From an uncultured Bacteroidia bacterium (GTDB lineage Bacteria > Bacteroidota > Bacteroidia > Bacteroidales > UBA932): DNA of 64,000 nt. Shown piece by piece: positions 8,932 to 27,477 of the stretch (positions are counted from its first letter, which is position 1; every line of letters begins with the position of its first letter). The position numbers and the translations under genes were made by a program. Below the pieces are notes generated by a model. It saw only the letters and a program-made list of their open reading frames with translations, did no database searches and was not told where the DNA came from. The stretch is from the NCBI GenBank assembly GCA_902762435.1, contig CACWOH010000016.1, positions 20,873 to 84,872 on the forward strand, in the 5' to 3' direction.

Positions 8932-10020
8932 TTACTCCATTTCGACTCCGCTGTATTCCTTAATCAAAGAGAACAATCTGTTTTTCACGCCTACTTGCAG
9001 CGGAGACTGCATAACATCAAAATCCGGCGCATTGTTTCCCTCAACAAATTCTATCTCTCCGGACTTGTTAATCACCACATCCCAACCGGTGAGCGTATTC
9101 TTCGTCATCGTTGCCGCTTCACTGCAGGTCTTACAAATAAGATCCCATTTGGGGATTTTAAACCCTTTTATTTTCAACCGGCTATCGGGATGGAAAGGGA
9201 ACCTTTGTCCTTTCGTATTAATCCCATCACTCTCGATTACTCCTGTTTCGACATTGATCTGGGCAAATATACCCCCGGCATGCGCATTGTCAACTATGCT
9301 TGCTCCCCCACCCATCCGGAAAAAACTGCCGAATACCTCCGCCTTCTCCTGATTCGAAACGGTTACGACACGAATCGAATTCAAACTCTGAGGATGGAAC
9401 GCGCTCAATTCATCACAAGACTCTATATACTGTTCAACCAGCATCCGCCCTTTTACGCAAGAATCATAAAGAGCCCTGATATCCCGCACCGAATCTTTAC
9501 ACGTTTTGAAAATACCTTGCCCCAAACTTCCGGCTTTAGGTTTCACGATACAATCATACCTGGAAACCAATGACACGAACTCATCTAATGTTGCATCAGG
9601 GGCATAAAGCCACTCCCTATGTACAAACGACTTAAAAAAACTCAAGAACAGTACTTTATCCTTGAAAATATATTGGACCGATGCCGGAATATATTTCCAG
9701 ACGAAATACTTCATCTTCAACCTGGATACATATTCCTCCCGGACCTGCTCCGGTTTTTGGGGGAAATCATACTGCAAAGCATATTCATTATATGATACCC
9801 AATGCTTTCCCAGTGCGTCCTTATAATCTTCATATGAGCCCGCTCCCTTGCCCTTGTCATATACTCTTTTTGCGATGGCCAGCTGTCGCATCTTCCCATA
9901 TCGGACCCGAAGGCTGGCCCAAAATCCTTTCATTCCGACAGAAGAAAGGATTTTGTCGAAAGCGGGAGTTTCTATGATTTCTTTTAGCCTAGAGCCAGAT
10001 TCTCTCATAGATAATACCAT
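8932..10020 (-). CDS. Sugar-transfer-associated ATP-grasp protein, copy A
   Basis: 362 residues. The ATP-grasp core has a nucleotide-binding strand and loop IVKPKAGSLGQGIF (about 170), the family block HPQSLNSIRVVTV, a DNAHAGG loop, a GWDV strand and the metal-binding E-x-N in FVEGNNAPDFD. These landmarks match the ATP-grasp type linked to exopolysaccharide genes (Pfam ATPgrasp_ST, related to TupA of teichuronopeptide synthesis). Family enzymes are expected to form amide bonds through an acyl-phosphate; substrate unknown. It is closest to the next gene upstream, with which it shares long near-matching stretches. The ATG at 10020 lies six bases from the preceding stop. Confidence 0.78.
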   Translation of the reverse strand: MVLSMRESGSRLKEIIETPAFDKILSSVGMKGFWASLRVRYGKMRQLAIAKRVYDKGKGAGSYEDYKDALGKHWVSYNEYALQYDFPQKPEQVREEYVSRLKMKYFVWKYIPASVQYIFKDKVLFLSFFKSFVHREWLYAPDATLDEFVSLVSRYDCIVKPKAGSLGQGIFKTCKDSVRDIRALYDSCVKGRMLVEQYIESCDELSAFHPQSLNSIRVVTVSNQEKAEVFGSFFRMGGGASIVDNAHAGGIFAQINVETGVIESDGINTKGQRFPFHPDSRLKIKGFKIPKWDLICKTCSEAATMTKNTLTGWDVVINKSGEIEFVEGNNAPDFDVMQSPLQVGVKNRLFSLIKEYSGVEME

Positions 10021-10026
10021 TATGCT

Positions 10027-11106
10027 TTATTCCAGATCTATTCCGCGATACTCTTTGACCAATGCATATATCTTTTTCTTGGCCCCCGCGCCATAACGGG
10101 TCTGCATCATATCCATATCCGGCCCGTAATTGGCTTCTACCAATTCCACATTCCCGTCCTTATCGAGCACAACATCCCATCCCGTGATGGGATTATCCGT
10201 CTGCAATGCTGCCTCACGACAGGATGACGTGACAGCGTCCCACTTGGGGACCCGGAACCCCTTGAAGGCAATTCCACTATCCGGATGGGTTATAAACCTT
10301 TCACCAAAGGTATTTGCACCATCCGTCTCAACGATACCGGTTTCAACATTTACCTGGGCTGATATACCACCCGCGTGCGAATTGTCAACCACACTGTCAC
10401 CGACCCCGGTCCGAAGCACTCCGGAAAGAATGCACGCCTTCCCGGAACCCGCTACGGTAACCACCCGGATGGTATTCAAGCTCTGGGGATGCAGTTCCTT
10501 TAATTCTGCACAAGATTCGATGCACTGCTCCAGAAGATAACGATCCCGATAACATTGAGAATACAGTTGTTCAACGTTGTTCAAATCATCCTTGTGAATC
10601 TTATAAATACCCTTGCCCAGTTTTCCATCACAAGGCTTGGCGATACAGTCATATTCTGAAACCATCTGAGAAAAAGTCTCCAGAGAAGCATCCGGTACAT
10701 AAATCCACCGTCGATGCACATACTTCCGGAAAGTCTTCAAAAGGATTTGTTTATTGCGGAATACCGCTTTGGCGGATCCGGGAGCATATCGCCAATAGAA
10801 GTATGCCATCCTCAAGCGGGAAACATACTCCTCCCGTTCTTCCTCTTTTTTCTTATAAAACTCATACTGATAAGCATACTCAGAATATGTAACCCAATGC
10901 TTATTCAAAGCGTCTTTGTAATCATCCAGGTTTCCCAAAGGAGAACCATCGCAAAACCTCCTTTCAGCTTCAGCGAGCATTTTTCTCTTTCTGGATCGAA
11001 CGGTAAGATCCGCCCATAGGCGTTTTATGCCTGAATATGTCGCAAACTTATCCCCTGCCGGAGAATAAGCTACCGAGCAGAGAAATGATTTCAGTCTATT
11101 GTTCAT
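10027..11106 (-). CDS. Sugar-transfer-associated ATP-grasp protein, copy B
   Basis: 359 residues and the clear sister of copy A. Both share KHWVxYxEYAxQY, REEYVSRL, a VHRxWxYxPDA block and the same C-terminal order. ATP-binding is at IAKPCDGKLGKGIY (about 160), followed by HPQSLNTIRVVTV, DNSHAGG, GWDVVLDKDG and the E-x-N metal site LVEANYGPDMD. All catalytic landmarks look intact in both copies, so this is a duplication that kept two active genes. The likely function is amide ligation of an amino acid or amine to a sugar acid or acyl carrier; which one is unknown. It follows the acetyltransferase gene by three bases. Confidence 0.78.
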   Translation of the reverse strand: MNNRLKSFLCSVAYSPAGDKFATYSGIKRLWADLTVRSRKRKMLAEAERRFCDGSPLGNLDDYKDALNKHWVTYSEYAYQYEFYKKKEEEREEYVSRLRMAYFYWRYAPGSAKAVFRNKQILLKTFRKYVHRRWIYVPDASLETFSQMVSEYDCIAKPCDGKLGKGIYKIHKDDLNNVEQLYSQCYRDRYLLEQCIESCAELKELHPQSLNTIRVVTVAGSGKACILSGVLRTGVGDSVVDNSHAGGISAQVNVETGIVETDGANTFGERFITHPDSGIAFKGFRVPKWDAVTSSCREAALQTDNPITGWDVVLDKDGNVELVEANYGPDMDMMQTRYGAGAKKKIYALVKEYRGIDLE

Positions 11107-11109
11107 GTG

Positions 11110-11565
11110 CTACCTGGCTTTCTCTCCGCGTTCGACAATCTGTCCATTATCACTGATTACAGTACCTGTCCGGACAATCCTGGCCGGATTGCCCGCCACG
11201 ATACAATGGTCCGGCACAGAGCGGGTAACAACACTTCCTCCCCCCACATAGACGTGGTCTCCAATGGTCACTCCCGGCATGATCATCGACCTTCCGCCGA
11301 TGACGCAGTTACTGCCGATCCTCGTATCGCACCACATCGAGCAACCCTCCAGCGCACCGCGGGAATAATCGTGCGCTATGATCAAGGCTTCCATCAGCAC
11401 GCGTGTATTGTCTCCGATATGCACCCCTTTCGGATGGGCGCGGTCCAGGATGGCGCTCCTGGAGATCCGGCAATTCTCGCCAATTTCACACCCCCGCAGC
11501 CTGTGATGGAATATGATGAGCTTGCTGCTGTACCGGCTCATCAATTGTCTTAGACTCAGTTTCAT
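11110..11565 (-). CDS. Left-handed beta-helix acyltransferase (hexapeptide family)
   Basis: 151 residues. Hexapeptide repeats run through about residues 25-130 (IGENCRI, IGDNTRV, IGSNCVI, IGDHVYV), ending with VAGNPARIV, the usual tail of the O-acetyltransferase group (WcaF/NodL/CysE-like). The protein is slightly short for maltose-acetyltransferase relatives, with a basic amphipathic N-terminus. It would transfer an acetyl or other acyl group from CoA or ACP to a sugar hydroxyl in the cytoplasm. Placed directly after the KAS III gene, it is a candidate user of the locus-made acyl-ACP, but acetyl-CoA is equally possible. Confidence 0.8.
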   Translation of the reverse strand: MKLSLRQLMSRYSSKLIIFHHRLRGCEIGENCRISRSAILDRAHPKGVHIGDNTRVLMEALIIAHDYSRGALEGCSMWCDTRIGSNCVIGGRSMIMPGVTIGDHVYVGGGSVVTRSVPDHCIVAGNPARIVRTGTVISDNGQIVERGEKAR

Positions 11566-11566
11566 A

Positions 11567-12622
11567 TCAAAGCTTATTCAAAGTAGCCACAGTAACTTTT
11601 TTCGTCCTGAGCACCATCGTCCCCCAGGTAAGGCCGAGGCCGAAGGAGGAACACAACAACGTCAGCGGACGGTTCTGAAGCTCTTCCGCCAGGTTCCAGG
11701 TCATCAGCATCGGAACGGAGGCGCCACCCAGGTTACCGAATTCCTGCAGGTCGTAAGGGACTTTCTCCAGCGGGAGCTTGAGTTTCTTGACAATCCGGTC
11801 CACGATCAGCTTGTTGGCCTGGTGGATGAGGAAATAGTCCACATTCTCCGGTGTCAGTTCATATTTCTCCATCATCTTCTTGATGCTGATGGGCGGACGG
11901 GAGATGGCGAACGAAAAGACGTCCATCCCGTTGATCAGGGTGTCCTTCGGCGCACGGACGATGCCGTTGCCGAAATCCTCTTCGATGAAGGATTCCGGGG
12001 TGATCGGATGCCGGAAACCGCCGTGCGGCGTGATAAGCGCCTCGTAGCCGGCGCCCAGGGTATTGAACTCGATCACGATGTCCGGCGCGGAAGGGTCGTA
12101 TTCCAGTGCCATCGCCGTGCCACTGTCGCCGAACAGGGGCACGCGGCTCTTGTCCTTCATCGAGCCCATCCGGAGGGCGGTGTCCCCCACCAGCAGCAGG
12201 GCACGCTTGACGTTGCCGCCGCTGAGCAGGTTACCCGCCACGTTGATGGCGTACATACTGCCGCAGCAGCCCATCGGGATGTCCAGCACGAAGGTGCTCG
12301 TGGGCAGCCCCAGCCGGTGCTGCAGGATGCCGGAAGTGGGCGGTGTCTTGTAGTCCCCCGTCACGGAGCCGAACACCAGCACGTCGATGCTCTCCTTTTC
12401 CCACCCGAGCGCCGCGATCAGGCGCTCGGCGGCATCGAAGCACAGGTCCGAAGTGCACAGTTCGTCCGGCCCGATGTAGCGGTTCCGGATTCCGACGGTG
12501 TTGTCGAAAATATCGGCCTCCTCCTGCGTAAAGATGTCGAAATCCGCCGTCTTCACGGCATGGGCCGGCACCGTTCCCGTAACGCCGCGCAAGGCGACGT
12601 TCTTGATTTCCCAGAGGGCCAT
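11567..12622 (-). CDS. 3-oxoacyl-ACP synthase III (KAS III) family protein
   Basis: 351 residues from an ATG at 12622 that overlaps the ACP stop by one base; the longer open frame upstream is ACP sequence in another frame. The thiolase-fold catalytic triad is present: Cys119 in MGCCGSMYA, His in LIHQANKL and Asn in FGNLGGASVP. Such enzymes condense an acyl-CoA with malonyl-ACP to start a fatty acyl chain. With its own ACPs, ligase and SDRs it is more likely part of a dedicated short-chain acyl pathway for glycan decoration than the housekeeping FabH. Some family members instead act as acyltransferases. Confidence 0.82.
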   Translation of the reverse strand: MALWEIKNVALRGVTGTVPAHAVKTADFDIFTQEEADIFDNTVGIRNRYIGPDELCTSDLCFDAAERLIAALGWEKESIDVLVFGSVTGDYKTPPTSGILQHRLGLPTSTFVLDIPMGCCGSMYAINVAGNLLSGGNVKRALLLVGDTALRMGSMKDKSRVPLFGDSGTAMALEYDPSAPDIVIEFNTLGAGYEALITPHGGFRHPITPESFIEEDFGNGIVRAPKDTLINGMDVFSFAISRPPISIKKMMEKYELTPENVDYFLIHQANKLIVDRIVKKLKLPLEKVPYDLQEFGNLGGASVPMLMTWNLAEELQNRPLTLLCSSFGLGLTWGTMVLRTKKVTVATLNKL

Positions 12623-12861
12623 TACAGTTCGATTTCGTATTTGGCGAGGATCGCCCGGGCGTTGTCGTAGGACGTGCACTCCAGTATGTCCTCCGGATCC
12701 AGCATGATGTCGAACGTGTCCTCGATGTTGCTGGTCAGGTTCAGCTGGCGGACGCTGTCCCAGCCCTCCACGCTCTTGTTGTCGAATCCCGCCCCCAGGG
12801 CGGAAGCATCCACGGAGAAGACCTCGCAGAAGATGCCGTTCAGTTTATCCAGGTTCGTCAT
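12622..12861 (-). CDS. Acyl carrier protein (locus-specific), copy 1
   Basis: 79 residues, acidic, four-helix ACP pattern. The phosphopantetheine attachment serine is S36 in EGWDSVRQLNL, the canonical D-S context. The C-terminal acidic segment (DIMLDPEDILECTSYDNA) matches the third and fourth helices. It lies between the AMP-forming ligase (four bases away) and the KAS III gene (one-base overlap), so it probably carries the acyl group these two handle. A separate carrier (15632) exists in the same locus, suggesting two different loading steps. It is too diverged and in the wrong context to be the housekeeping AcpP. Confidence 0.83.
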   Translation of the reverse strand: MTNLDKLNGIFCEVFSVDASALGAGFDNKSVEGWDSVRQLNLTSNIEDTFDIMLDPEDILECTSYDNARAILAKYEIEL

Positions 12862-12865
12862 GGTT

Positions 12866-14239
12866 CTATTGGTTGATTACTTTGCCGGCCTCGTTGCGAA
12901 GGATCTTGTCCACGAGCCGGACTTCTATATTCTTGTGAAACAGATGCGTCTTTTCTTCGATGAAGGCAGGGAGCCGGTCCGCAAGGGCCGGATCGGTGAC
13001 CAGGACGACGAGTCTTTCGTCATCCCCCTTGCAGTAGCAATCCGCCTGGAATTCCGCCTTGACCAGGTTCTCCACCTCGTCCAGGCCGATCCGCAGGCCG
13101 AAGATCTTAAGGAACCTGCCCAGGCGCCCGACGATGAAATAGCAGCCGTCGGCATCGCGCCGCGCCAGATCGCCCGTCCGGCGGACACCGTGGTTTTCGT
13201 CGCCTTTCAGCAGGTCATCCAGGCCATTCGCATAGCCCAGCGTCACGTTCTCGCCGCGATAGACCATCTCGCCGGTCGCCTCGCCCTCGAAGGTCTCGAC
13301 CCCGGTCTCGTCGATGATGGACAGCTGCCCGCCCGGTTCGGCGATACCGATGCTGCAGGTCTTTTCCAGGGCGAGTTCCGCCGGGAGATAGGCCATCCGG
13401 GCCGTGCACTCGGACTGTCCGTAGGTCGCGATGAACCGCTTGCCCTTGTCCCGGGCATACTCCGCCAAGGCCGTGAACATCTCCGGCGTCAGTTTTCCAC
13501 CGCCCTGCGTGATGACGCGCAGGTTCGGGAGGTCCATCCGCGTGAAGCGCATCTTCATCAGCAGCTCGTAGCTGTACGGCACGCCGGTAAAGCTGGTGGC
13601 TTCCTTCAGCATCGCCCAGAACCCGCGGTCCAGCAGCGAACGGCCGGAAAGCAGGAGCGTCGCCCCCGCCAGCAGGTGGGATGCAATTACGGAGAGGCCC
13701 ATCGTGTAGTGCATCGGGAGCACCGCCATAGCGCGCTCGTCCGCGGTCAGGCCGAACAGACGGCGCACGTTGTCCGCATTCGCCTCGATGTTCCGATAGC
13801 TGTGGCGCACCAGTTTGGGACTGCCGGTCGATCCGGAAGTGGGCAGCAGCAGCGCCAGGTCTTCATACAACGGAGCACTGTCGAAGCCCGTTTTCAGCAA
13901 CACGTAACCCCAAGCCCGGAACACCGGTTCATAGGGGAACGCCATCTCCTCCGGGGCCCAAAGATAAGCAGGGCGGTACAGGTCGCGCAGGCGCTCATAC
14001 AGGCCGGTCTCCGTTTTCGCGCTCAGGATGAGCGGCACGATCCGCTCCGACAGGCAGGCCGTGTAGCCCAGCAGCGAGCCGATCCGGTTTTCGGCGAGCA
14101 GGAAGATCAGGGAACGTGCGGGCAGCCGGGCGGCGAACTCCGCGGAGAAATCGCAGATTTCGCCGTACGTCAACTGCGCTCCGCTGTCGTCGATGACGGC
14201 AACGGCAGCCCTGTCTTTCTTGTCAAGGTCCAGGAACAT
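12866..14239 (-). CDS. AMP-forming acyl-CoA/acyl-ACP synthetase (adenylation enzyme)
   Basis: 457 residues, a compact ANL-superfamily adenylation enzyme. Core motifs are LLPTSGSTGSPKLVRHS (ATP phosphate loop), YGQSE (A5), RTGDLARRDADG (A7 Asp), GRLGRFLKIFGLRIGLDEVE (A8 hinge) and a C-terminal NEAGKVINQ with the catalytic A10 lysine. All are present, so it should be active. It adenylates a carboxylic acid and most plausibly loads it onto the neighbouring ACP; loading an amino acid instead cannot be excluded. The N-terminus is shorter than in long-chain acyl-CoA synthetases, as in stand-alone domains working with carriers. ATG at 14239; six bases separate it from the broken SDR. Confidence 0.8.
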   Translation of the reverse strand: MFLDLDKKDRAAVAVIDDSGAQLTYGEICDFSAEFAARLPARSLIFLLAENRIGSLLGYTACLSERIVPLILSAKTETGLYERLRDLYRPAYLWAPEEMAFPYEPVFRAWGYVLLKTGFDSAPLYEDLALLLPTSGSTGSPKLVRHSYRNIEANADNVRRLFGLTADERAMAVLPMHYTMGLSVIASHLLAGATLLLSGRSLLDRGFWAMLKEATSFTGVPYSYELLMKMRFTRMDLPNLRVITQGGGKLTPEMFTALAEYARDKGKRFIATYGQSECTARMAYLPAELALEKTCSIGIAEPGGQLSIIDETGVETFEGEATGEMVYRGENVTLGYANGLDDLLKGDENHGVRRTGDLARRDADGCYFIVGRLGRFLKIFGLRIGLDEVENLVKAEFQADCYCKGDDERLVVLVTDPALADRLPAFIEEKTHLFHKNIEVRLVDKILRNEAGKVINQ

Positions 14240-14245
14240 GGAAAT

Positions 14246-14908
14246 TTAGATGGATGCGCAGCCGTCCACTCCGAGGATGTGGCCGCTGATATAGGAGGCC
14301 CGGTCGGACGCCACGTCCTGCGGCGTACCCAGACGTCCCAGGGCGATGCGGCTGATACGCTGGTCAATCTTGTCGCCGGAGGCCTCGTAAAGTTCTTCGA
14401 AGCGTTCTGTCTTGATGATGCCGGGGGCAACGGCATTCACACGGATCTGCTGCGGGGAAAGTTCCTTCGCCGCAGATTTGGTAATGGAGATGACCGCGCC
14501 CTTGGTGGACGAATACGCCACCTGGCCCGGGGATCCCACCACCCCTGTGATGGAAGCGATGTTGACGATGCTCCCGCCGCCCGTGCGCGCCATCAGGCGC
14601 GAAACAAGCTGGATCATGTCGATCACGGCGAACACATTCACGCTGAACATCTTCTCCAGCAGGGGTTTGGTCACCATCCCGAGTTTCTGGTTCTGGATGA
14701 TGGCGGCGTTGTTCACCACCACGTCGATGCGGCCTTCGGCCTTGTAGATGCCCATCAGGCCCGCCTTGAGCGCGGCGGAGTCCGTAACGTCAAAGCAGAC
14801 GGGCACGACGCGCGTACCGCTTCGCTGCGCGCAGTCCGCCGCCCAGGCTTCCATATCCCCCATTTGCAGGTCGTTGGCATAGACGACGGCGCCGTCCGCG
14901 GCGGCCTC
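14246..14908 (-). pseudogene. SDR (FabG-like 3-oxoacyl reductase), N-terminus lost by deletion
   Basis: The frame encodes most of a short-chain dehydrogenase: NNAAI, the Ser of SIVNIASITG, the YSSTKGA Tyr-Lys pair and the terminal SGHILGVDG. The whole Gly-rich NAD(P) loop is missing. In this frame, codons readable without a start (ADGAVVYANDLQ) continue directly upstream to about 14905, where the sequence abruptly becomes the end of the other SDR in a different frame. Near the C-terminus, GTPQDVASDRASY also lacks the roughly seven to eight residues normally found between DVA and SD. The first in-frame ATG is at 14863, but a product from there could not bind cofactor normally. A real lesion or an assembly collapse. 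Confidence 0.6.
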
Positions 14909-15632
14909 CGTCGATGACCAGGGAATGCCCGGTCACCCAGGAGGAAGCGTCGGAAAGCAGGTACACGATGGCCAGGGCGACGTCCCGCGGCTCGCCGTAA
15001 CGCTTGAGCGGGTATGTTTCCAAATCCCTCGCCTTATCTTCGTCCGAATAGGAACGGCCAGCCAGGTTGGTATTCACCATGCCGGGATTCACGCTGTTGC
15101 AACGCACTTTCGGCGCCATCTCCAGGGCCACGTTCTTCATGAAAACCTGAAGCGCGCCCTTGGAGGCACCATACATCGCATTGCCGGGCGCGGTCGTGTA
15201 AATGCCCCCGACGGAAACCGTGAAGACGATGGACGCGCCGGCATTGAACTTCTTCTTCCTGCACAGCCGCTGCGTCAGGTAAATGGGGGCGAAGGTGTTG
15301 ATGGACATAATCCGCTCCAGGTCGTCCGGGTTGATGAACTTGACCGGGAGGGGCTTGGTCACCCCGGCATTGCTCACGAACCCGTCCAGGGACGGCAGAT
15401 CCGCCACCAGGGCGTCCAGCGCCTCCTGGGAAGTCAGGTTCGCAACCAAGTATCGGTGCCCATCGCCTTCCAGTAATCCCTGCGTCTCTTGCAGGCCGGC
15501 TTCGTTGATGTCCGTCAGGATCAGTGTCGCGCCCAATTTGGCGCATTCGACCGAGGTGGCCCGGCCGATGCCGCCGGCGGCGCCCGTTATCAGGATGGTT
15601 TTCCCCGCGAGGGAAAAAGGATTATACTCCAT
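14790..15632 (-). CDS. SDR-family oxidoreductase (FabG-like), C-terminus altered by a deletion junction
   Basis: 280 residues, of which about 1-243 are a standard classical SDR. Cofactor loop TGAAGGIGRA, NAG at 88-90, the active-site Ser of IVFTVSVGG and Tyr-X3-Lys in YGASKGA are intact, and GHSLVIDGG is the normal end. The last 37 residues (Arg-rich, from about 244) are the neighbouring SDR read in the wrong frame and have no SDR character. The catalytic domain may still fold. Expected job: reduce a 3-ketoacyl-ACP to the 3-hydroxyacyl form, or oxidise a sugar. ATG at 15632 overlaps the upstream ACP stop by one base. Confidence 0.72.
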   Translation of the reverse strand: MEYNPFSLAGKTILITGAAGGIGRATSVECAKLGATLILTDINEAGLQETQGLLEGDGHRYLVANLTSQEALDALVADLPSLDGFVSNAGVTKPLPVKFINPDDLERIMSINTFAPIYLTQRLCRKKKFNAGASIVFTVSVGGIYTTAPGNAMYGASKGALQVFMKNVALEMAPKVRCNSVNPGMVNTNLAGRSYSDEDKARDLETYPLKRYGEPRDVALAIVYLLSDASSWVTGHSLVIDGGRRGRRRRLCQRPANGGYGSLGGGLRAAKRYARRARLL

Positions 15633-15865
15633 CAGGCAATCTTGGCTTGGACCGTATTGAACAGGTCCTGAATGGTTACGGCGGCTTTCATCTCGTTGCC
15701 GGTCAGGGCCACGCCGTATTCTTCGTCGATCATCGCAATGATGGACAGGGCCACGATGGAGGAATAGTCGTCCAGTTCATGGAAGACCGTTTCCGGGGAA
15801 AGGTCATCGACCGTCGTATCGTCAAACTGATCCGCGAAATTGTTGATGAATTCGTTGATTTCCAT
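15632..15865 (-). CDS. Acyl carrier protein (locus-specific), copy 2
   Basis: 77 residues from the ATG at 15865, which follows GGAG by a short spacer; a TTG twelve bases earlier is a weaker option. The helical, acidic pattern and the block HELDDYSSIVALSII place the pantetheinylated serine at residue 36. The usual Asp before it is Ser here. It differs strongly from the other ACP at 12622, so the two probably interact with different partners. Located between the PglD-like acyltransferase and the SDR, it may present the finished acyl group for transfer to an amino sugar (inference). Confidence 0.8.
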   Translation of the reverse strand: MEINEFINNFADQFDDTTVDDLSPETVFHELDDYSSIVALSIIAMIDEEYGVALTGNEMKAAVTIQDLFNTVQAKIA

Positions 15866-15877
15866 ATGATTCTCCAA

Positions 15878-16510
15878 TTATATCTCAAACTTTTTGGCCG
15901 GATTCCCGCAAACGGTCGTCCCGGCCTTCACTTTCCTGATTACAAAACTCAATGCCCCCACGTGGGCCCCCGTACCGACGGTAACCCCGTGATTGATCAC
16001 TGCGCCGGTGTGGATGTTGGTTTCGTCTTCAATAACGATGCCGCCCACGCACGTCACGTGCGTATCAATCCGGTTCCAGCTGCCCACGCGGGCGTCGTGC
16101 CCGATGACCGTATAGGACTGGATCATATTATAATCCCCGACCACGGCATCGTTGCCGATGATGGAGTAGGCCCCGACGAAGTTCCCTTTCCCGAGACGGG
16201 CGTTCTGGTAAATGCGCGCCGTCTTGTGGATCAATTCGATGAACTCCCCGCCCCGCGCGATAATCGCCTCCATGCAGGGACGCCGGGCGGCGCTCCCGAT
16301 CGACGAGACGAAAACATCGCCGGGCTGCGGCCGGTACTCCCGGATCGTCCCGAGGATCGGCGGATAGTTCTCCAGTCCGTCCAGGGCGTGAAGATTGTCG
16401 TCGAGGAATCCCTTGACGGTAAATTCCTCTCCGTAGCCCCGGCTCTCCAGCGCATTGCTGAAGACCGTCCGGCCCATCCCGCCGGCACCGATGATGATCA
16501 GGTTCTTCAT
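15878..16510 (-). CDS. NeuD/PglD-like sugar acyltransferase
   Basis: 210 residues from the ATG at 16510; the 66 preceding codons are out-of-frame ATP-grasp sequence. The N-terminal Rossmann-like PglD_N part (KNLIIIGAGGMGRTVFS, then KGFLDDN) precedes a left-handed beta-helix (about 95-205) ending VCGNPAKKFEI. In this family a His in the helix acts as base; candidates lie in INHGVTVGTGAHVG. PglD relatives N-acetylate 4-amino sugars with acetyl-CoA. The ACP gene 12 bases downstream makes an ACP-bound donor possible. The start overlaps the ATP-grasp stop by four bases. Confidence 0.82.
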   Translation of the reverse strand: MKNLIIIGAGGMGRTVFSNALESRGYGEEFTVKGFLDDNLHALDGLENYPPILGTIREYRPQPGDVFVSSIGSAARRPCMEAIIARGGEFIELIHKTARIYQNARLGKGNFVGAYSIIGNDAVVGDYNMIQSYTVIGHDARVGSWNRIDTHVTCVGGIVIEDETNIHTGAVINHGVTVGTGAHVGALSFVIRKVKAGTTVCGNPAKKFEI

Positions 16511-19801: not shown

Positions 19802-19811
19802 GATTCTTCCC

Positions 19812-20996
19812 CTACTTGACAATCCGCCTTTTCAGCTTCAACAGATACTTGATGACAAACCGCCTCCTCAGGTGCTTCATCGGACGGGGATCTCCGGCAC
19901 TTTGTACAAAGTAGATACCCGCCTGCTTCTTGATTTCTTCAAATCGCCTGACAGAGAGTTTCCCTTCAAGGATATTATTAAACGCGACTTCCTCATTCAG
20001 ATAGAATTGATCCTTTTCAACAACTGGAACAGAATCAGGATTGAGGGAGTTGGTCAGGATTTGGATAAAGAGTGCGGGGACATTCACGCCCAATTTGAAC
20101 AATCCATAGCCATATGTGGCAAATCGGAGATTCAATTCTACGAAAAACACACGCCCCTCTGTCTCGATGAAATCAATATTGAATATACCGACATATCCTA
20201 GTCCCTTCAGAAGAGTCTCGATTTTCCGTTTAATCTCATTATCCGTCCGGACCGGCTTTACATGGCCCAGGATGGAAACGCCATGGCTGGAGCCCTCCCC
20301 CATCAGAACAAGTTCCGTCTCTGCCGGGACCCAGCAATTCTCTCCGTCGCAAATGCCCATCATCCCCATTTCTCTTTTAATCTTCACAAACTCTTCCGCA
20401 TAAAGCGGATGGGGATAAACCGTCTTGCACAAGCGGGTCAAGGCCTCAAGTTCCGACTTGTCTTCGCACTTCCGCTGAATGGGCTTCGAGTCCCAGTAAC
20501 TATACAGTCCCTTGACATAGCATGGATATTCTATCTGATCCGGGACAGAAAACTCCCCGTCCTCGTACATAATTGGCCAGCCCTGCACTACAGATAACCC
20601 AACCGCGGCAGCCCGGGTCTTCATGTAATTTTTGTCCATCAACCCGGACAAACTGTTTCCATCTTTCAAATGCGCGAACAGGAAAAAAGCCTCCAACCGA
20701 CTCCGCGCATCATCAATGATGTGTGTCACTTTGTCGCTTAGGGAGAAAAGAACGGGTTTCTGTCCACACCCCTGATACTTTTCTATCAGGAATTCCGGCA
20801 GAGTAACGGGACCGGTCTCATCGAAATAAAAGTAATCCTCCACATATTTGCAGAAGAAGTCGGATGTCTTCAACATCTTACCCTTATTCCTTCCTATCCG
20901 GACGATGTCAACACCATATCCAGCAGCACCTACCGCACGGGCCGTACAAAGCCTGATCACGTCCGATGTCCCTATTATTACTGCTTTTGTCGCCAT
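19812..20996 (-). CDS. ATP-grasp ligase of a different (carboxylase/PylC-like) type
   Basis: 394 residues from the ATG at 20996 (MATKAVIIGTSD); the 44 codons before it have no domain character. A pre-ATP-grasp Rossmann-like domain (about 1-110) is followed by an ATP-grasp with LMDKNYMKTRAAAVGL, YPCYVKGL, YAEEFVKI and the metal site VFFVELNLRFATYGYG (E-x-N). This arrangement resembles carbamoyl-phosphate-synthase-type and amino-acid ligases rather than the seven sugar-transfer-associated copies in this locus. It would form an amide or acyl-phosphate from a carboxylate. It sits directly downstream of a GNAT gene, a frequent pairing in amino-acid-modifying loci. Substrate unknown. Confidence 0.75.
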   Translation of the reverse strand: MATKAVIIGTSDVIRLCTARAVGAAGYGVDIVRIGRNKGKMLKTSDFFCKYVEDYFYFDETGPVTLPEFLIEKYQGCGQKPVLFSLSDKVTHIIDDARSRLEAFFLFAHLKDGNSLSGLMDKNYMKTRAAAVGLSVVQGWPIMYEDGEFSVPDQIEYPCYVKGLYSYWDSKPIQRKCEDKSELEALTRLCKTVYPHPLYAEEFVKIKREMGMMGICDGENCWVPAETELVLMGEGSSHGVSILGHVKPVRTDNEIKRKIETLLKGLGYVGIFNIDFIETEGRVFFVELNLRFATYGYGLFKLGVNVPALFIQILTNSLNPDSVPVVEKDQFYLNEEVAFNNILEGKLSVRRFEEIKKQAGIYFVQSAGDPRPMKHLRRRFVIKYLLKLKRRIVK

Positions 20997-21019
20997 AGAC
21001 CGGCTATACTTCTCCTTTT

Positions 21020-21613
21020 TTATCGCTTGAATACCCGGCGCAGCTGATATTCCGCCAGACGAACCGCTTTGACACAACAGTACATTGTCTTCATCCTGAG
21101 ATCCGAATACGGTGCTCCATTGAGCCATTTAACCATAAAAACCCACGGACTGTCGCTCCCCCGGGCAAAGCTTACTTTTTTGTAACCATTCTTTGACGCG
21201 ACCCCGATTACACGGGCATTGCCCGGATGTGTATTGAAAAGCATTTTGTCCAGGCCTTGTGCCGCCGCCGCCTTCTCACGTAGTTCCAGCAATTCGCCAT
21301 AAATGCCCCGTCCTCTGTATTCAGGCAGGACAGCAGCAAAACAACAATAGGCAAACATACCTTCGCCAAACCAGAACGACGCCTTTTTCAAAGTATATGC
21401 CGCCGTCCCGATTACCTTGTTCCCCAGAACCGCGACAAACATCTTTCCTCCCTGGGCCAAATGCTCCTCAATCCCCTCTCCTGAAAGTGCCGCGTGGGCC
21501 ATGTTCATCCCCTCTTCCCGATTCGTCCCATGGGCTTTCCAGATTACTTCATGAATATCATCCCAGGACACCCAATCGGGTTTTTCAATGATCTGAATTG
21601 CCGGATCGTTCAT
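21020..21613 (-). CDS. GNAT-family N-acetyltransferase
   Basis: 197 residues from the ATG at 21613. The acetyl-CoA pyrophosphate loop is VLPEYRGRGIYGELL (about residues 100-114), preceded by the beta-4 strand FAYCCFAAV, and followed by FNTHPGNARVIGVASKNGYKKV, the usual alpha-4/beta-6 region. It transfers an acyl group from CoA to an amine, here perhaps the amino group of an amino acid or amino sugar in the glycan. The C-terminal 40 residues are basic and not part of the fold. The genes on both sides are ATP-grasp proteins, suggesting a shared substrate path. Confidence 0.78.
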   Translation of the reverse strand: MNDPAIQIIEKPDWVSWDDIHEVIWKAHGTNREEGMNMAHAALSGEGIEEHLAQGGKMFVAVLGNKVIGTAAYTLKKASFWFGEGMFAYCCFAAVLPEYRGRGIYGELLELREKAAAAQGLDKMLFNTHPGNARVIGVASKNGYKKVSFARGSDSPWVFMVKWLNGAPYSDLRMKTMYCCVKAVRLAEYQLRRVFKR

Positions 21614-21623
21614 TCCAAAGGGC

Positions 21624-22808
21624 TTACCCAAAAAACTTATGATGAATCGTGGTTCTGTCCGGATAATCCTTAAAACGAACCGCACCCAAAGGCAAGTATT
21701 TTGCCCTAACCTTGGAAACGTGCGCCATCAGTTCATCCAGGTCCTCCCGGTTGAACATCGGACCCACCGCTTGCTGCAGCCCCACCCCGGGCCTAGGATT
21801 GAACTCGATGAAGACAGGATGTCCGTCCGGAGAGAGGGCGAAATCCCAGCCCACGATATCCAGCTGCGGCAGACGGCCATGCAGGGTCAAGGCGGCCGCC
21901 TTCAACACCTCCCAACAAGGTATCCGGTCCGGCAGGGAATCCGGCAGGGAGGGAACATCCATGACAAAATAACTGTAACGCTTCCGATTCAGGAGTTTCC
22001 CCGTTTCAATATCCACTCCGGTGTACCCACCTCCGGAACAAACGTTGTCCATCACGGAACCTTCCCCGCCAAAACGCATGCAGGAATACAGGACCTTACG
22101 GCGTTTCGAGGGATCCCGGTAAGTCACAATCCGGATGGTATTGAGAGAGGTCGGATTGAATTGCGCGAAAACCGGATGTTGTACGACCATCTTCTGGAAC
22201 GTATAATCATACCTGTATTTCGTCATCAGCGCATCAAACTCCGTACGGTCGGTTCCACGCTCGACCTTCACGACGCCACGGCCACCGAAAGTCTCCACGG
22301 AAGGTTTCAGGATCAAGGCTTCCCCGAAAGACAGAAGCGTATCCAAGGCGGTTTCCCGCGAGCACTCCTTTCCGTCCCCGGTATAGAATACCCCGTTGGC
22401 GTTATAGACCACATCCTCGGCGGCCATCACGCCAAGCTCGGCGTCCGGCAGCCCCAAGATGGTTTTCTGGACATTCTTGTCCATATAAGCCGGCACGAAA
22501 TCATAACGGTCCAGGTACGGATAGATATAGTGAACCGCCATCGAGCGGGTCACATAATGATCCGCCTCAATTCCTGAAAGCTTACCGTAGTAAGCCGCGT
22601 CCAGACCGGAGATGTCAAAACCCCACTTCTTCCAATATGGGTTCTTCCTTTTCACATATTTCTTCCATTCGAATTCCGGACACATCTCGTTCTTCAGGAA
22701 CATCCGGGTATCAAAATGCTGGAATCTCTTACGTAATGGCGGTGCAAGGAAACACCACCCCCGGAACAATATAGCGCTGATCTTTTTATGCAACAGATAA
22801 CAACCCAT
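21624..22808 (-). CDS. Sugar-transfer-associated ATP-grasp protein, copy D
   Basis: 394 residues. ATP-binding strand LILKPSVETFGGRGVVKVE (about 165-183), then FNPTSLNTIRIVTY, DNVCSGGGYTGVDIETG, GWDFALSPDG and the metal site VFIEFNPRPGVGLQQ (E-x-N). All family landmarks are complete. The N-terminus is hydrophobic then basic (MGCYLLHKKISAILFRGW), which could associate with the membrane face. It is less similar to copies A/B than they are to each other. Amide-bond formation is the family expectation; substrate unresolved. A three-base gap separates it from copy E. Confidence 0.77.
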   Translation of the reverse strand: MGCYLLHKKISAILFRGWCFLAPPLRKRFQHFDTRMFLKNEMCPEFEWKKYVKRKNPYWKKWGFDISGLDAAYYGKLSGIEADHYVTRSMAVHYIYPYLDRYDFVPAYMDKNVQKTILGLPDAELGVMAAEDVVYNANGVFYTGDGKECSRETALDTLLSFGEALILKPSVETFGGRGVVKVERGTDRTEFDALMTKYRYDYTFQKMVVQHPVFAQFNPTSLNTIRIVTYRDPSKRRKVLYSCMRFGGEGSVMDNVCSGGGYTGVDIETGKLLNRKRYSYFVMDVPSLPDSLPDRIPCWEVLKAAALTLHGRLPQLDIVGWDFALSPDGHPVFIEFNPRPGVGLQQAVGPMFNREDLDELMAHVSKVRAKYLPLGAVRFKDYPDRTTIHHKFFG

Positions 22809-22811
22809 CCC

Positions 22812-23966
22812 CTATTTAAAATGAATACTACCAACATTCATTCTCCACATCGCTGATGCGCCGATCCGTGACCACGTGTTTTTTCTGGACATCGCATCCT
22901 TAAGTATTTCCTCCGTGTATTCCCCAAAAGCGGGACCATTCGCGGACTGGCTCAGATCTGGCGTCACATTGAATTCGATCAAGGTTGGGGTACCATCTTC
23001 TTCTATTGCGATATCCCAAGCCATCAGATTAAAGAAGGGGAACTGCAAATGATACTCTTTTACCTTTTCGACGGCATCCTGATATGAGGGGATCCTATAT
23101 CCGTCCAATCGAACGCCACAATCCGTATACTCAATACGATCATTGCCCGGAGCACCATAAGCATACTTGCCTAAAGTCCCATCCGGGAGGATTTGGGTAC
23201 TGATTCCACCCGCGCTTTCATTGTCAATCGTTTTCCCCTTCCGACCAATACGGATGACAGAATAAACCATACGGACATCCATTCCGGTCCTATAGGTCAA
23301 CAAGCGGATTGTATTGATAGAAGTCGGGTTCAATGCACTCATATCCTTGTGCTGTCGGACCAACTCATCAAGCTGGAAGTCAGACCCATATTCCTTGAAG
23401 ACTTCTTCAAGAGTCTGGTTTCCATTATCGATCCGCCCCTCCCGGATATGCAGTACCCTTACACCCATCCCCCTGCTCGACAAGGACGGCTTGATAATAA
23501 CATCACCCAGGTTCCTGCATTTTTCCAACGCCTCCTGCGAAGAAACGGCCTTCCCCTCATAATAATAGAAACCGTTCATATTCTTCAAATAGATCCTGGG
23601 CTGATGGGCAGACGGAAGAAAGACGTCCGACAGGTTCTTATCCGTATACGCCCGCTTTAGCGGATATACATTCAACCTACCGACAATATTCGTCTTGTAT
23701 TCACTCGTCGGCAAATACAATTTAGAATAAATCCCCGTCCGGGAGTAAAAGAAACGATGCCACTCCAATGGGATAGGATGCCCCAGAAGACCCGTATAAA
23801 ACTCCTGGATCTCCTTTTCCTGCGCCTGCGTCAAAGATCTGCTTTGCTTAAGCTTCTTCTGGCTTGAGCGGATGCCGCTGATGTACTCCTTAACCTCTTG
23901 CCTGTCCTTATAACGAGAAAGGATTCCGATGGCTTTGTTTACAAGTTTGTCAATTAGTTTAGACAT
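22812..23966 (-). CDS. Sugar-transfer-associated ATP-grasp protein, copy E
   Basis: 384 residues. VIIKPSLSSRGMGVRVLHI (ATP loop), LNPTSINTIRLLTYRTG, DNESAGGISTQI, AWDIAIEEDG and LIEFNVTPDLSQS (E-x-N metal site). It is a close paralogue of the copy at 25124: both share a FYSR-x-G block, AYTDK, an N-x-x-GF-Y/F-Y/F block and SQ(S/T)A-x-GPAFGE-x-TEEI at the C-terminus. The CapA-like gene separates the pair, so the duplication predates or included that insertion. The substrate-recognising N-terminal third differs more than the core, fitting different acceptors for one chemistry. Confidence 0.78.
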   Translation of the reverse strand: MSKLIDKLVNKAIGILSRYKDRQEVKEYISGIRSSQKKLKQSRSLTQAQEKEIQEFYTGLLGHPIPLEWHRFFYSRTGIYSKLYLPTSEYKTNIVGRLNVYPLKRAYTDKNLSDVFLPSAHQPRIYLKNMNGFYYYEGKAVSSQEALEKCRNLGDVIIKPSLSSRGMGVRVLHIREGRIDNGNQTLEEVFKEYGSDFQLDELVRQHKDMSALNPTSINTIRLLTYRTGMDVRMVYSVIRIGRKGKTIDNESAGGISTQILPDGTLGKYAYGAPGNDRIEYTDCGVRLDGYRIPSYQDAVEKVKEYHLQFPFFNLMAWDIAIEEDGTPTLIEFNVTPDLSQSANGPAFGEYTEEILKDAMSRKNTWSRIGASAMWRMNVGSIHFK

Positions 23967-23971
23967 AAAAA

Positions 23972-25111
23972 CTACTCGTTAATAATACGGTCTTCAAGCA
24001 TCCTGACCATACGAGCCTTTCTCAGGTCGTTTTTCATCAAAAACGCCAGTTCGTCCAGTGAAGTCGGCCGCTGGCCACGCATGCATTTCCACAGTGCGGC
24101 CAAAGCCTCCTTGGTGTTTCTAGGCAGAAACATCTGACGAACCCGCCTTAACTCGCCCCTATCACGCGTTTCCAATGCTGATTTCAAGCATCTCCCATAA
24201 GCATCTGGATTGTTCAAGTACTCACAAATCAGCCTGTTATGCTCTTCGCGTCTTTCGTCGTAATCCACCACCATACCCAGGTTGTCCACATTGCGGGTAT
24301 TAACCACCTCCCAAGTCAGATTACCATCGGTTATGGACATCAAGACGCACAAGCCTTCATACCAATGCGGGCGATTGGTGGCACGGTAATCATACCCATC
24401 TTTACTATTGAACAAGAGATTGCCCAAACTATAGAAAACCGGCTTCCCTTTATAGGTCTCCCACCCTTGCGGACAATGCGGGTGCGTGCCAATCACGCCG
24501 TCGGCCCCGTAATCGATGAAATCCCGGTACCGGGCGATGGTCTCCGGAAGCGGGACATCAATATACTCTATGCCGTCGTGCGGCAAGACGAACAGATAAT
24601 CGAGCGTCTTTTTGGCTTCCTGGATAATATGATTGACCTGCAGGTCATTGATGTATGCGCACCCCAGCCCTTCGTGCCGGGAGACATCACTGAATACGCC
24701 CCTGTAAGCGGCAAAAGAAAGAGCCAGAAAGCCGATCCTGACACCGTGTACATCAACGGTCTTAACCTTGTACGCCTCCTCGTACGTGCCAGCGCCGAAT
24801 CCGTCATCGCCCAACGCTGCCTTTGTCTTCAGGAAACCTTTATCTCCCCAGTCAAAAGCGTGGTTGTTCGCCATCGAGAACAGATTGAATCCCATATTTC
24901 GGAGGAATCCCGGAGCGTCGTCGTTCTGGTAGAACAACTCCCTGCCCCGGGAGGACACGGAGACTCCTTCCGGTCGCAACGGCACTTCAAAATTGACTAT
25001 CCGCAAATCGCAAGCCCGGAGGACCTGCCGCAATTCCTCCGATACCGTTATCGGGGACGTGCTGGATTTCGAGCAGAAATCTCCTGCAAAAAAAAGACGA
25101 ATCGTATCCAT
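23972..25111 (-). CDS. CapA/PgsA-like metallophosphatase-fold protein
   Basis: 379 residues of the CapA (PGA_cap) family, a calcineurin-like fold. The metal-site pattern is present: FAGDF (Asp), NFEVPL (Asn/Glu), SMANNHAFDWG (Asn-His), VLPHDGIEY and GTHPHCPQG with KPVFYSLGNLLF. CapA/PgsA is required for poly-gamma-glutamate capsule synthesis and export, though its reaction is debated, and relatives occur in other capsule loci. No signal peptide or membrane anchor is visible, so this form is probably cytoplasmic, unlike PgsA of Bacillus. It is flanked by the paired ATP-grasp copies E and F, and a Mur-type ligase lies five genes upstream, as in pgs loci. Confidence 0.8.
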   Translation of the reverse strand: MDTIRLFFAGDFCSKSSTSPITVSEELRQVLRACDLRIVNFEVPLRPEGVSVSSRGRELFYQNDDAPGFLRNMGFNLFSMANNHAFDWGDKGFLKTKAALGDDGFGAGTYEEAYKVKTVDVHGVRIGFLALSFAAYRGVFSDVSRHEGLGCAYINDLQVNHIIQEAKKTLDYLFVLPHDGIEYIDVPLPETIARYRDFIDYGADGVIGTHPHCPQGWETYKGKPVFYSLGNLLFNSKDGYDYRATNRPHWYEGLCVLMSITDGNLTWEVVNTRNVDNLGMVVDYDERREEHNRLICEYLNNPDAYGRCLKSALETRDRGELRRVRQMFLPRNTKEALAALWKCMRGQRPTSLDELAFLMKNDLRKARMVRMLEDRIINE

Positions 25112-25123
25112 CCCGGACCTATA

Positions 25124-26254
25124 TTATCCCATCCATAAACGGATATTGAACGTGTCACGCCGGCTCAAGGCATATTTGATAATTTCCTCCGTCATTTCTC
25201 CGAATGCCGGCCCGTGTGCAGTCTGGCTCAAGTCGGGACAGCGATTCCACTCGATCAATACGGGCCGGCCGGCACTGTCGATACCGAAATCCCAACCGAC
25301 AAGGCTGAAATAAGGGAGTCGCTTATGCAAATCCTTCACAACCTGCATCGCATCTGAAAAAGCCGGGATCCTATATCCCTTAAGAGGCGTACCGACATCA
25401 GTCATCGGAATACGCTTCTCAGCAGGAGTACCATAAGCACAATCACGGACACAACCGTTTTCAAGGAGGATATCCGCATTGATTCCGCCGGCCGTTTCAT
25501 TGTCGACCTGTTTATCCTTCCGGCCAATGCGGACGACGGCATACAAGATATAAACCTCGTCTCCCCTATGGAAGGACAAAACCCTTAACGTATTGAGCGA
25601 GGTCGGATTCAACCGGGCCATTTCCGGATGCTGGATGACCTTCTCCTGAACGATGAAGTTCTCCTTATAGGCTCCGAATAGGTCTTCCAGCGTCTCATTC
25701 TCTCCGATCCGCCCCCCTCTTGAGGAGAAAAGCCGAACCCCACACCCCCACATTCCGATCATCGAGGGCTTGATGACTACGCTTTCCAGATCCCGGCAGA
25801 GAGCGAGAGCCTCGTCCCGGGTAATCGGGCGCTTATCATCAAAGAAAAAGCCATCGATGTTCCGGATAATGGTCTTTGGCCGGTTCACGTCTGCGAAATA
25901 GTTGTCCAAAGAGCACTTGTCCGTATAGGCCATCGTGAGCGGGCGGTTGTTCAGCCGGTAGATTATGTCGGAATGATAAAAGCAAGTTGGGACATATCGG
26001 ACGGAAAACTCTCCATTACGGGAATAGAAGTATTCGTGCCAGTAATACGGCAACTTCTTCCCGGTCAGGCCCATCCAATAAGCCTGGACCGCTTCTATCT
26101 GATCCTTTGTCAAAGGATTACGCTCACACTGAAGGAGCTTGCCCTTGATACTGTTGACATCCTGTTCGTACCAGAGCCGCTCACGAAGCTTCGTGAGCCG
26201 CTCTGAGGCGCTCATCTCAAATTTGCGGGCAAAGGAAATGGTCTTGTTATTCAT
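25124..26254 (-). CDS. Sugar-transfer-associated ATP-grasp protein, copy F
   Basis: 376 residues, the sister of copy E. Core landmarks: VVIKPSMIGMWGCGVRLF, LNPTSLNTLRVLSF, DNETAGGINADI, GWDFGIDSAG and LIEWNRCPDLSQT (E-x-N). In the ATP loop the Gly pattern is partly replaced (M-W-G-C-G instead of S-R-G-M-G), which may tune rather than abolish nucleotide binding. The shared tail GPAFGEMTEEI with copy E is diagnostic of the pair. The ATG at 26254 lies 50 bases after the previous stop, one of the larger gaps here; that gap contains a 10-base palindrome AGGCCGGCCT but no clear promoter. Confidence 0.78.
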   Translation of the reverse strand: MNNKTISFARKFEMSASERLTKLRERLWYEQDVNSIKGKLLQCERNPLTKDQIEAVQAYWMGLTGKKLPYYWHEYFYSRNGEFSVRYVPTCFYHSDIIYRLNNRPLTMAYTDKCSLDNYFADVNRPKTIIRNIDGFFFDDKRPITRDEALALCRDLESVVIKPSMIGMWGCGVRLFSSRGGRIGENETLEDLFGAYKENFIVQEKVIQHPEMARLNPTSLNTLRVLSFHRGDEVYILYAVVRIGRKDKQVDNETAGGINADILLENGCVRDCAYGTPAEKRIPMTDVGTPLKGYRIPAFSDAMQVVKDLHKRLPYFSLVGWDFGIDSAGRPVLIEWNRCPDLSQTAHGPAFGEMTEEIIKYALSRRDTFNIRLWMG

Positions 26255-26304
26255 CCTGACCTATGATTCAATAATAATACATTCTATCTCCGGGAAAGGC
26301 CGGC

Positions 26305-27477
26305 CTACCCATTGGCGACGATCCTTTCCAGATGGCTGCGTTTCAGCATGTTCCGATCCCGGCTCATCATAAACTGTTTGCCGGTTCTCTTCCAGGCAAA
26401 ATAGCAATCCCGGATCTCGTCTCTCCACCCGCGGCGGATAAAATACTGCCCCGTCCGATCCCAGAAGTCATTCACCTCGATCACGACCGGGCCATCGTCG
26501 GTGATGGCGATATCCCAGCCAGCTGCCTTGCAATACGGGAACGCCTGCTGGAACTTTTTCACTTCTTCTTTGATGGATTCCCAGTTCTCGATGACCACAC
26601 CATTCAATCGGCAGCCGCTGTCGGGATGACACTCGATCTCCTTGATTTTTCTCCATCCGTCAAATTGTATGACATTATATAGTTCCCCGGTCTCTATGTC
26701 CACCGTTCCGTCAACATTTCCACCACTACCCGCATTATCTACGCACTCGCCTTGACGACCCACCTTGAAGAATACCGCGATAATCTTCACCTCTCCATCC
26801 GGATAAAGCAATGTCATAAAGCGCACAGTATTGACCGATGATTCATTGAACGCAGCGAACTGCTTGGTCTGATAGACGACACTCTCGAAAATCAAGGCGT
26901 CTTGACCCAGCACCGATGACAATGAGATCTTCTCACCATCGAAACGGGTCATTACGGCATCATCTTCTTGGTAATCAATGGTCCGGATAACCCATACATT
27001 ATCCCCGTGGGAACTCTCCGTTGGTTTGATGACACATGATTGCACATCTTTATGTTTCAAGATCCGAAGCACTTCACCCAGATTGCTTGCCTTCTCATCA
27101 TTGGTGGCAAAACGGCCTTCCGGTTGATAATAGCAATACAGTTCAGACTTACGCACCCCGGTACCCTCGAGCATCTTGTGAGCCAGGTATTTGTTCCTGG
27201 CCAGAGAATAATACTTTTTCGGATTAAGATAATCCAGATAGAAACGCTGTTCGTTCAGGCCAAGGAATGTCCGTCGGAATTCTTCATCTTGCTTCTCAAA
27301 CTCAAACTCATAGTATTCTTCCGTCGTGAGGCCCTTTGTCTCAAACAACGCACGATAGTCGGCTACAATCCTTTTTTGTTCATCTGCTGACGGAGAAATC
27401 GATGCCGCCCAAAGAAGCATGTCCGACTGGTCGGAGTCAGGACGAATCAAACGTTTAAATAAGTTCTTGATTTTCAT
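26305..27477 (-). CDS. Sugar-transfer-associated ATP-grasp protein, copy G
   Basis: 390 residues, the most divergent and the first ATP-grasp in transcription order. CVIKPTESSHGDNVWVI replaces the Gly-rich loop, FNESSVNTVRFMTL corresponds to the N-x-x-S-x-N-T-x-R block, and DNAGSGGNVDGTVDIETG, HPDSGCRLNG, GWDIAITDDG and VVIEVNDFWDRTGQY (E-x-N) complete the order. Because the acceptor-side residues differ, it likely has its own substrate. It overlaps the GT2 stop by four bases, so ligase and glycosyltransferase are translated together. Assigned by motif order; the reaction is inferred. Confidence 0.74.
   Translation of the reverse strand: MKIKNLFKRLIRPDSDQSDMLLWAASISPSADEQKRIVADYRALFETKGLTTEEYYEFEFEKQDEEFRRTFLGLNEQRFYLDYLNPKKYYSLARNKYLAHKMLEGTGVRKSELYCYYQPEGRFATNDEKASNLGEVLRILKHKDVQSCVIKPTESSHGDNVWVIRTIDYQEDDAVMTRFDGEKISLSSVLGQDALIFESVVYQTKQFAAFNESSVNTVRFMTLLYPDGEVKIIAVFFKVGRQGECVDNAGSGGNVDGTVDIETGELYNVIQFDGWRKIKEIECHPDSGCRLNGVVIENWESIKEEVKKFQQAFPYCKAAGWDIAITDDGPVVIEVNDFWDRTGQYFIRRGWRDEIRDCYFAWKRTGKQFMMSRDRNMLKRSHLERIVANG

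Follow-up and report, generated by a model that had tools for sequence, protein, structure and literature searches.

What might one bacterial operon do with seven ATP-grasp ligases of the same family? The question is raised by a surface-glycan locus from an uncultured Bacteroidia bacterium (Bacteroidales; UBA932), carried by a stretch of 64,000 nucleotides (contig CACWOH010000016.1 of assembly GCA_902762435.1, positions 20,873 to 84,872) that is called here the window and whose numbering is used throughout. An earlier note on this DNA had assigned seven open reading frames (ORFs) to sugar-transfer-associated ATP-grasp ligases and had proposed that each adds one amide-linked residue, giving a glycan with a peptide-like decoration. 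The explanation favoured here, which we place just on the probable side, is that the locus makes a glycan, exported by Wzx, with a peptide-like side chain that contains an opine and is amide-linked to the repeat unit. It draws on the seven ligases and on genes overlooked in the earlier note, namely a further ATP-grasp, a MurF-like ligase, a CapA protein and an opine dehydrogenase. The genes concerned are the following.

8932..10020, minus strand: ATPgrasp_ST ligase AG1 (PF14397, 175.5 bits)
10027..11106, minus strand: ATPgrasp_ST ligase AG2 (PF14397, 171.7 bits; 50% identity to AG1)
16507..17502, minus strand: ATPgrasp_ST ligase AG3 (PF14397, 162.3 bits; K-E replaces K-P)
19812..21128, minus strand: eighth ATP-grasp, of another family (PF02222, 31.6 bits, cut-off 27; true start probably near 20993)
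21624..22808, minus strand: ATPgrasp_ST ligase AG4 (PF14397, 117.1 bits; 66% identity to the protein of locus L047, 15784-16965)
22812..23966, minus strand: ATPgrasp_ST ligase AG5 (PF14397, 119.9 bits)
23972..25111, minus strand: CapA (PGA_cap) protein, MslH-epimerase-like (PF09587, 150.6 bits, cut-off 27)
25124..26254, minus strand: ATPgrasp_ST ligase AG6 (PF14397, 127.1 bits)
26305..27477, minus strand: ATPgrasp_ST ligase AG7, whose orthologs pair with opine-type synthases (PF14397, 133.7 bits)
28478..29995, minus strand: MurF-like Mur ligase (PF08245 and PF02875 over cut-off; best match in the PDB, MurF 4cvk)
30004..31470, minus strand: Wzx-type flippase (PF13440, 298.4 bits; 9 bp from the opine dehydrogenase)
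31480..32568, minus strand: opine dehydrogenase of the Octopine_DH family (PF02317, 105.4 bits, cut-off 30)

The seven ORFs are all present on the minus strand in the ORF list of the window, and their assignment to the ATP-grasps is upheld by a profile search in which all seven proteins match the Pfam ATPgrasp_ST model PF14397 (117-176 bits, cut-off 31.4). The motifs S-x-N-[TS]-x-R, [GA]-W-D and E-x-N occur in 7/7 proteins, D-N-x3-G-G in six (16507 has D-G) and, as had been claimed, the K-P of the ATP site in six of the seven, 16507 displaying K-E in the alignment. The shared strands and loops described earlier are thus largely kept, but the N that opens the first block is present in four proteins only, being replaced by H in 8932, 10027 and 16507, and 8932 carries S where the others have T. 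The ordered motif set was found in none of 21,000 shuffles and in none of 24 other proteins of the locus. The 26305 protein, the sole one of the seven that was modelled (predicted local distance difference test, pLDDT, 90.2), displays the ATP-grasp fold: of 314 Foldseek matches in the PDB at E<=0.001, the 50 best are ATP-grasp proteins by name, and the foremost are D-Ala-D-Ala ligase and RimK, with LysX/ArgX and other ligases also present.

The substrate class of these ligases is suggested by the company that the 26305 family keeps. The best PDB match of the window opine dehydrogenase, a putative opine former, and its closest solved relative is N-(1-D-carboxylethyl)-L-norvaline dehydrogenase (CENDH, 1bg6; E 5e-29); its H202 and D298 align with H202 and D297 of 1bg6, a pair that we take to be catalytic. 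Two other kinds of opine-type synthase occur in related loci. Alpha-aminoadipic semialdehyde synthase, an enzyme that produces saccharopine through its lysine-ketoglutarate reductase part, is the closest match of the LOR-like proteins. The three best plasmid matches of a CEOS-like protein are annotated as N(5)-(carboxyethyl)ornithine synthase (32-33% identity), the best of them lying on an E. coli plasmid (NZ_AP027746.1, 171133-172188). The AlaDh_PNT superfamily takes in the CEOS-like and the LOR-like proteins but not Octopine_DH.

A scan for the 26305 family gave 58 loci, reduced to 57 by dropping one whose ligase is not an ortholog (L085, 33% identity). With a single query for each synthase family and thresholds of 90-100 bits, an opine-type synthase was called in 28/57 of these loci, versus one (L024) of 40 loci with other ATPgrasp_ST ligases. 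The former amount to 1,064,053 bases and the latter to 704,719 bases, with a similar mean length; some loci are truncated at contig ends. The controls come from searches of the genus and of the order, several sharing a genome; they leave out three positive genomes (G010, G328, G431) and keep L111, whose ligase falls beside the clade of the 26305 protein and reaches 211 bits against it. Three further loci (L086, L088, L090) belong to neither set; adding L086, which carries an opine dehydrogenase and, in that stretch, no 26305-type ligase, together with L090 to the controls gives 2/42. After the ligases were collapsed at 70% identity, a synthase is found in 17/29 clusters versus 1/40, one cluster of 16 with 3 positives being scored negative.

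The kind of synthase is variable. Among the 28 positive loci, 17 carry a LOR-like gene only, five Octopine_DH only, four a CEOS-like gene only (in one case split over two frames) and two both Octopine_DH and LOR-like genes; in one of these two (L068), the Octopine_DH is a 114-residue fragment. Locus L056 is an example with a CEOS-like protein, and L028 and L046 are examples with a LOR-like one; L046 comes from the complete genome of Petrimonas sp. IBARAKI (AP018040.2) and has three ATPgrasp_ST genes and CapA as well. A single 70% cluster (L044, L049, L052, L063) contains all three types, and the type changes at least eight times on a quick ligase tree in which 22/54 inner branches are weak, with L083 and L084 left out, L082 not counted and L068 counted as LOR-like. 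Furthermore, for 27/29 synthase genes of at least 200 aa, the distance to the flippase or to the ligase is no more than 100 bp.

The association was also examined from the opposite side, by locating in 392 genomes of the order four close orthologs per synthase family (identity of at least 64% for Octopine_DH, 53% for LOR-like and 51% for CEOS-like proteins), i.e. 12 genes including two of the queries themselves (window and G516). Seven of the 12 lie on stretches that carry ATPgrasp_ST genes (window, G507, G342, G407, G516 and two on contig C57 of G259) and three beside a TupA-type ligase (G151, G385, G502). One (G364) belongs to a glycan-type region with, about 8 kb off, an ATP-grasp for which an L-amino acid ligase domain is also a match, and the last (G259, contig C59) adjoins a flippase with no ligase in the stretch. 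The synthases therefore pair with glycan ATP-grasps in general and not with one family alone. LOR-like genes at large do not single out such loci, since 211/392 genomes have a homolog at E<=1e-10; among the matches listed, only four reach at least 53% identity and the next has 46%. In the stretches L119 (9488-13921), L121 (1-3348) and L128 (9397-12569), an opine-type synthase stands beside a flippase, identified by eye in L128, and a TupA-type ATP-grasp; no ATPgrasp_ST was found in them.

Opine dehydrogenases serve other pathways elsewhere, such as the synthesis of opine metallophores, and the synthases could belong to an unrelated pathway of this kind and lie in glycan loci by chance. Such a coincidence is very improbable given the 9 bp that separate dehydrogenase and flippase in the window, the spacing of at most 100 bp from flippase or ligase for 27/29 synthase genes, and the swapping of three synthase families at the same place.

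Several observations weigh against an opine-containing side chain built by amide ligases. The loci are related and the significance of the association (Fisher p = 2e-7, or 1e-7 after the 70% collapse) is uncorrected for relatedness. The CEOS-like proteins also resemble alanine dehydrogenases. A synthase is lacking from the stretch examined in 29/57 loci of the 26305 family. Thirteen of these 29 form one clade (L030 and L032-L043) in which the 26305-type ligase, located near 9.9-11.1 kb (681-1826 in L043), is the only ATPgrasp_ST, so this ligase may not need an opine; each of the 13 carries a hexapeptide-acyltransferase-like gene, and two of the three mapped (L035, L037) have heptose genes nearby. 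Seven of the other 16 synthase-free loci were available at under 20 kb. Such single-ligase loci without a synthase, common in the family, fit another explanation, namely that the ATPgrasp_ST proteins are amide ligases adding ordinary amino acids or small amines in one or few steps, several being alternative or redundant, with the opine a minor substituent or none. Known glycans carry mostly single amino acids, according to excerpts of PMC10609480. This alternative is possible though rather unlikely, since the synthase types are swapped beside orthologous ligases and lie tightly spaced with the flippase or the ligase.

The enzymatic activity itself is a further point at issue, amide ligation being the activity predicted for the ATPgrasp_ST family. 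The earlier note had leaned on TupA, but none of the seven proteins matches the TupA model (PF14305) at E<=1, and nothing significant came of comparing the ATPgrasp_ST profile with those of TupA-type proteins from related loci; the support from TupA stays indirect, and reading the function directly off TupA is weakened. In addition, the ATP-grasp kinases Vip1 and Asp1 are among the structural matches of the 26305 model, and an ATP-grasp glutamine kinase takes part in capsule synthesis in C. jejuni. Both points favour an alternative in which some or all ATPgrasp_ST proteins are phosphotransferases or act on the glycan, or on precursors of it, by another ATP-grasp activity. The best structural matches are, however, carboxyl-amine ligases and the locus is rich in amino-acid chemistry, and we consider such activities improbable.

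The rest of this amino-acid chemistry agrees with the favoured explanation of an opine-containing side chain. The model of the CapA protein (pLDDT 89.6) is closest in fold, among solved structures, to the lasso-peptide epimerase MslH (8gq9; E 1e-17), ahead of phosphatase-like proteins (9e-9). In an alignment of 22 proteins from three CapA subfamilies of these loci, its D11, H84, D87 and H212 match the catalytic Asp11, His88, Asp91 and His295 of MslH, and changing any of these four abolished MslH activity according to an excerpt of PMC10406935. A peptide-epimerase role is plausible, although the identity to MslH is only 17% and the score against the MslH NCBIfam model NF038314 (53.5 bits) is far below the cut-off of 700. 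A CapA gene is present in 21/28 synthase-positive and 3/29 synthase-negative loci of the 26305 family. Three CapA paralogs in L047 (11091-12254, 14607-15776 and 17587-18744) are interleaved with ATP-grasp ligases, as if there were one per ligase step, and the CapA gene of L086 (13068-13980) is in three pieces, beside an intact opine dehydrogenase and flippase.

Besides having the MurF of peptidoglycan synthesis as its best solved match, the window Mur ligase has murF (TIGR01143) as its best NCBIfam model; it differs from MurF in scoring below the cut-off (213.6 bits versus 288.6) and in its location within a glycan locus. It is not a regular partner of the 26305 family, since 0/58 loci carry such a gene in the stretch examined; one MurF-like gene was found in L088, a longer stretch from the same genome as L053, which is among the 58. 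Together with the opine-type synthases and the MslH-like CapA, this ligase gives the idea of a peptide-type substituent a support independent of that on which it was first proposed; that each ATP-grasp copy would add one residue, that all seven would be amide ligases and that a multi-step polyamide would result are assumptions that go beyond it, as are the substrates, the direction of the bond, the number of residues and the order of the steps. A bolder form of the same idea is a peptide assembly line that needs no template and is anchored on sugar: on a lipid-linked saccharide, the ATPgrasp_ST ligases, the MurF-like ligase and the other ATP-grasp would build a defined opine-containing peptide and the CapA-type epimerase would set its stereocentres. 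The outcome would be a glycopeptide polymer of the surface, an analogue of peptidoglycan yet distinct from it; this we regard as doubtful.

The flippase and the sugar transferases bear out the view that this is a surface-glycan locus. Between the NusG-like gene and position 2023, neighbouring genes are at most 60 bp apart, with one exception (245 bp), three of the start sites being estimates. The other genes of the locus are listed below.

3338..4588, minus strand: DegT aminotransferase, possible amino-sugar supply (PF01041, 287.1 bits)
8299..8907, minus strand: initiating sugar transferase (PF02397, 194.2 bits)
11110..11565, minus strand: hexapeptide acyltransferase (PF00132, 52.9 bits)
11567..15632, minus strand: acyl block with two short-chain dehydrogenase/reductase (SDR) frames, an AMP-binding ligase, an acyl carrier protein (ACP) and a ketoacyl-ACP synthase III (KAS III) (Pfam and ORF list)
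15878..16708, minus strand: PglD-like acyltransferase (PF00132, PF17836; true start probably near 16513)
17508..18665, minus strand: GT4 glycosyltransferase (PF00534, 115.5 bits)
18662..19822, minus strand: Wzy-like membrane protein, polymerase candidate (PF04932, 22.1 bits, below the cut-off of 31.7)
21020..21685, minus strand: GNAT acetyltransferase (PF00583, 43.2 bits; true start probably near 21613)
27474..28469, minus strand: GT2 glycosyltransferase (PF00535, 106.4 bits)
33398..34069, minus strand: NusG-like antiterminator, head of the glycan genes (PF02357, 35.0 bits, cut-off 22.2)

The flippase of the Wzx/Wzy pair is thus clear, and the polymerase is a candidate below cut-off. The count of only two glycosyltransferases given earlier holds for the GT2 and GT4 genes but misses the initiating sugar transferase. 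No nucleotide-sugar 6-dehydrogenase was noticed among the window ORFs, no dedicated search having been made. The two SDR frames (14246-15632, minus strand) overlap by 74 nt, the second lacking the usual N-terminal cofactor motif and the first having an odd Arg-rich tail, which looks like the result of a frameshift or deletion. The locus also includes a secreted-looking right-handed beta-helix protein (6871-8286, minus strand; PF13229), possibly a lyase or epimerase, and two adjoining NTP_transf_5 genes (4649-6864, minus strand; PF14907). At 62181-63993 (minus strand), proteins made of near-identical immunoglobulin-like repeats, Big_2-like by eye, reach the end of the window.

If the favoured explanation is correct, the opine dehydrogenase would carry out the reductive condensation of a 2-oxo acid with an amino acid into an N-carboxyalkyl amino acid. 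The opine so formed would be joined to the lipid-linked repeat unit, through an acyl-phosphate, by one of the ATPgrasp_ST ligases, most likely 26305. The bond could link the carboxyl of a sugar uronate to the opine amine or the opine carboxyl to an amino sugar; the DegT aminotransferase fits an amino-sugar acceptor. As the free groups of an opine allow further ligation, there would be work for several ATP-grasps and for the MurF-like ligase, which would extend or branch the side chain. Inversion of a stereocentre is a possible task for CapA, and provision of an acyl cap one for the ACP/KAS III block; the flippase would export the repeat unit.

Surface glycans with an amide-joined opine-type amino acid are exemplified, in excerpts of PMC10609480, by the O-antigens of Providencia, with alanopine in P. 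alcalifaciens O35 and N-epsilon-carboxyethyl-lysine in P. rustigianii O14; the same excerpts give two attachments, the amine of carboxyethyl-lysine being joined to a uronic acid and the carboxyl of alanopine to an amino sugar. These O-antigens are known as structures, whereas the glycan discussed here is known from genes alone, belongs to another phylum and involves many ligases; no account of the Providencia opine genes was found in the open-licence literature. ATP-grasp amide formation on a capsule uronic acid is described, in excerpts of PMC11800379, for the C-terminal domain of Cj1438 from C. jejuni, which differs in being TupA-like rather than ATPgrasp_ST and in using serinol-phosphate and ethanolamine-phosphate as amines. 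The acyl block of the window recalls the hydroxybutyryl-alanyl group of E. coli O123 (excerpts of PMC10609480). In the open-licence literature, no paper was found on the experimental function of ATPgrasp_ST or on opine-synthase genes in glycan loci.

How did seven copies come together? A search of the source genome (2.3 Mb, 46 contigs, 95.87% complete) found seven ATPgrasp_ST genes in all, every one within this locus. In the genus, 5/151 genomes have a match over cut-off, with at most three copies outside this genome; in the order, where at most six candidates per genome were scored, matches at E<=1e-15 occur in 40/392 genomes, 36 of which carry two or fewer. The statement that seven is far above the usual one or two holds in this sample of the order. 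Among 22 genomes chosen for holding the 26305 family, however, there are two with more: nine copies in G554, eight of them in two sets of four within 26 kb, and ten in G551, six within 15 kb including a short frame of 199 aa. The array thus belongs to the upper tail without being a record, and its uniqueness to this genome is ruled out.

Any two of the seven share 23-34% identity, apart from the pairs 8932/10027 (50%) and 22812/25124 (44%). In a FastTree phylogeny of 145 members with many weak forks, which excludes duplicate loci, 19 loci that are near-identical, fragmentary or duplicate, and frames shorter than 250 aa, the 26305 protein belongs to its own large clade, 25124 and 22812 to two subclades of one other clade, 21624 pairs with the L047 protein, 8932 is sister to 10027, and 16507 stands without close relatives. 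A burst of tandem duplication is ruled out by the low identities and by this separation, the one clear local duplication being 8932/10027. The seven fall in about five separate branches, and the locus was put together from distinct subfamilies. The G+C content forms a mosaic: it is 42-54% in two blocks of genes (31480-32568 through 16507, and 8932-11106) and 55-63% in those lying between 11110 and 16513, against 57-66% in 2-kb windows over 34-58 kb.

The swapping of three synthase families beside one ligase family gives the ATPgrasp_ST proteins a concrete candidate substrate class and predicts opine-decorated surface glycans in many Bacteroidales of animal guts. Such decorations would alter the charge and could affect how hosts and phages recognise the surface; exchanging one synthase cassette for another would offer a simple route to antigen variation.

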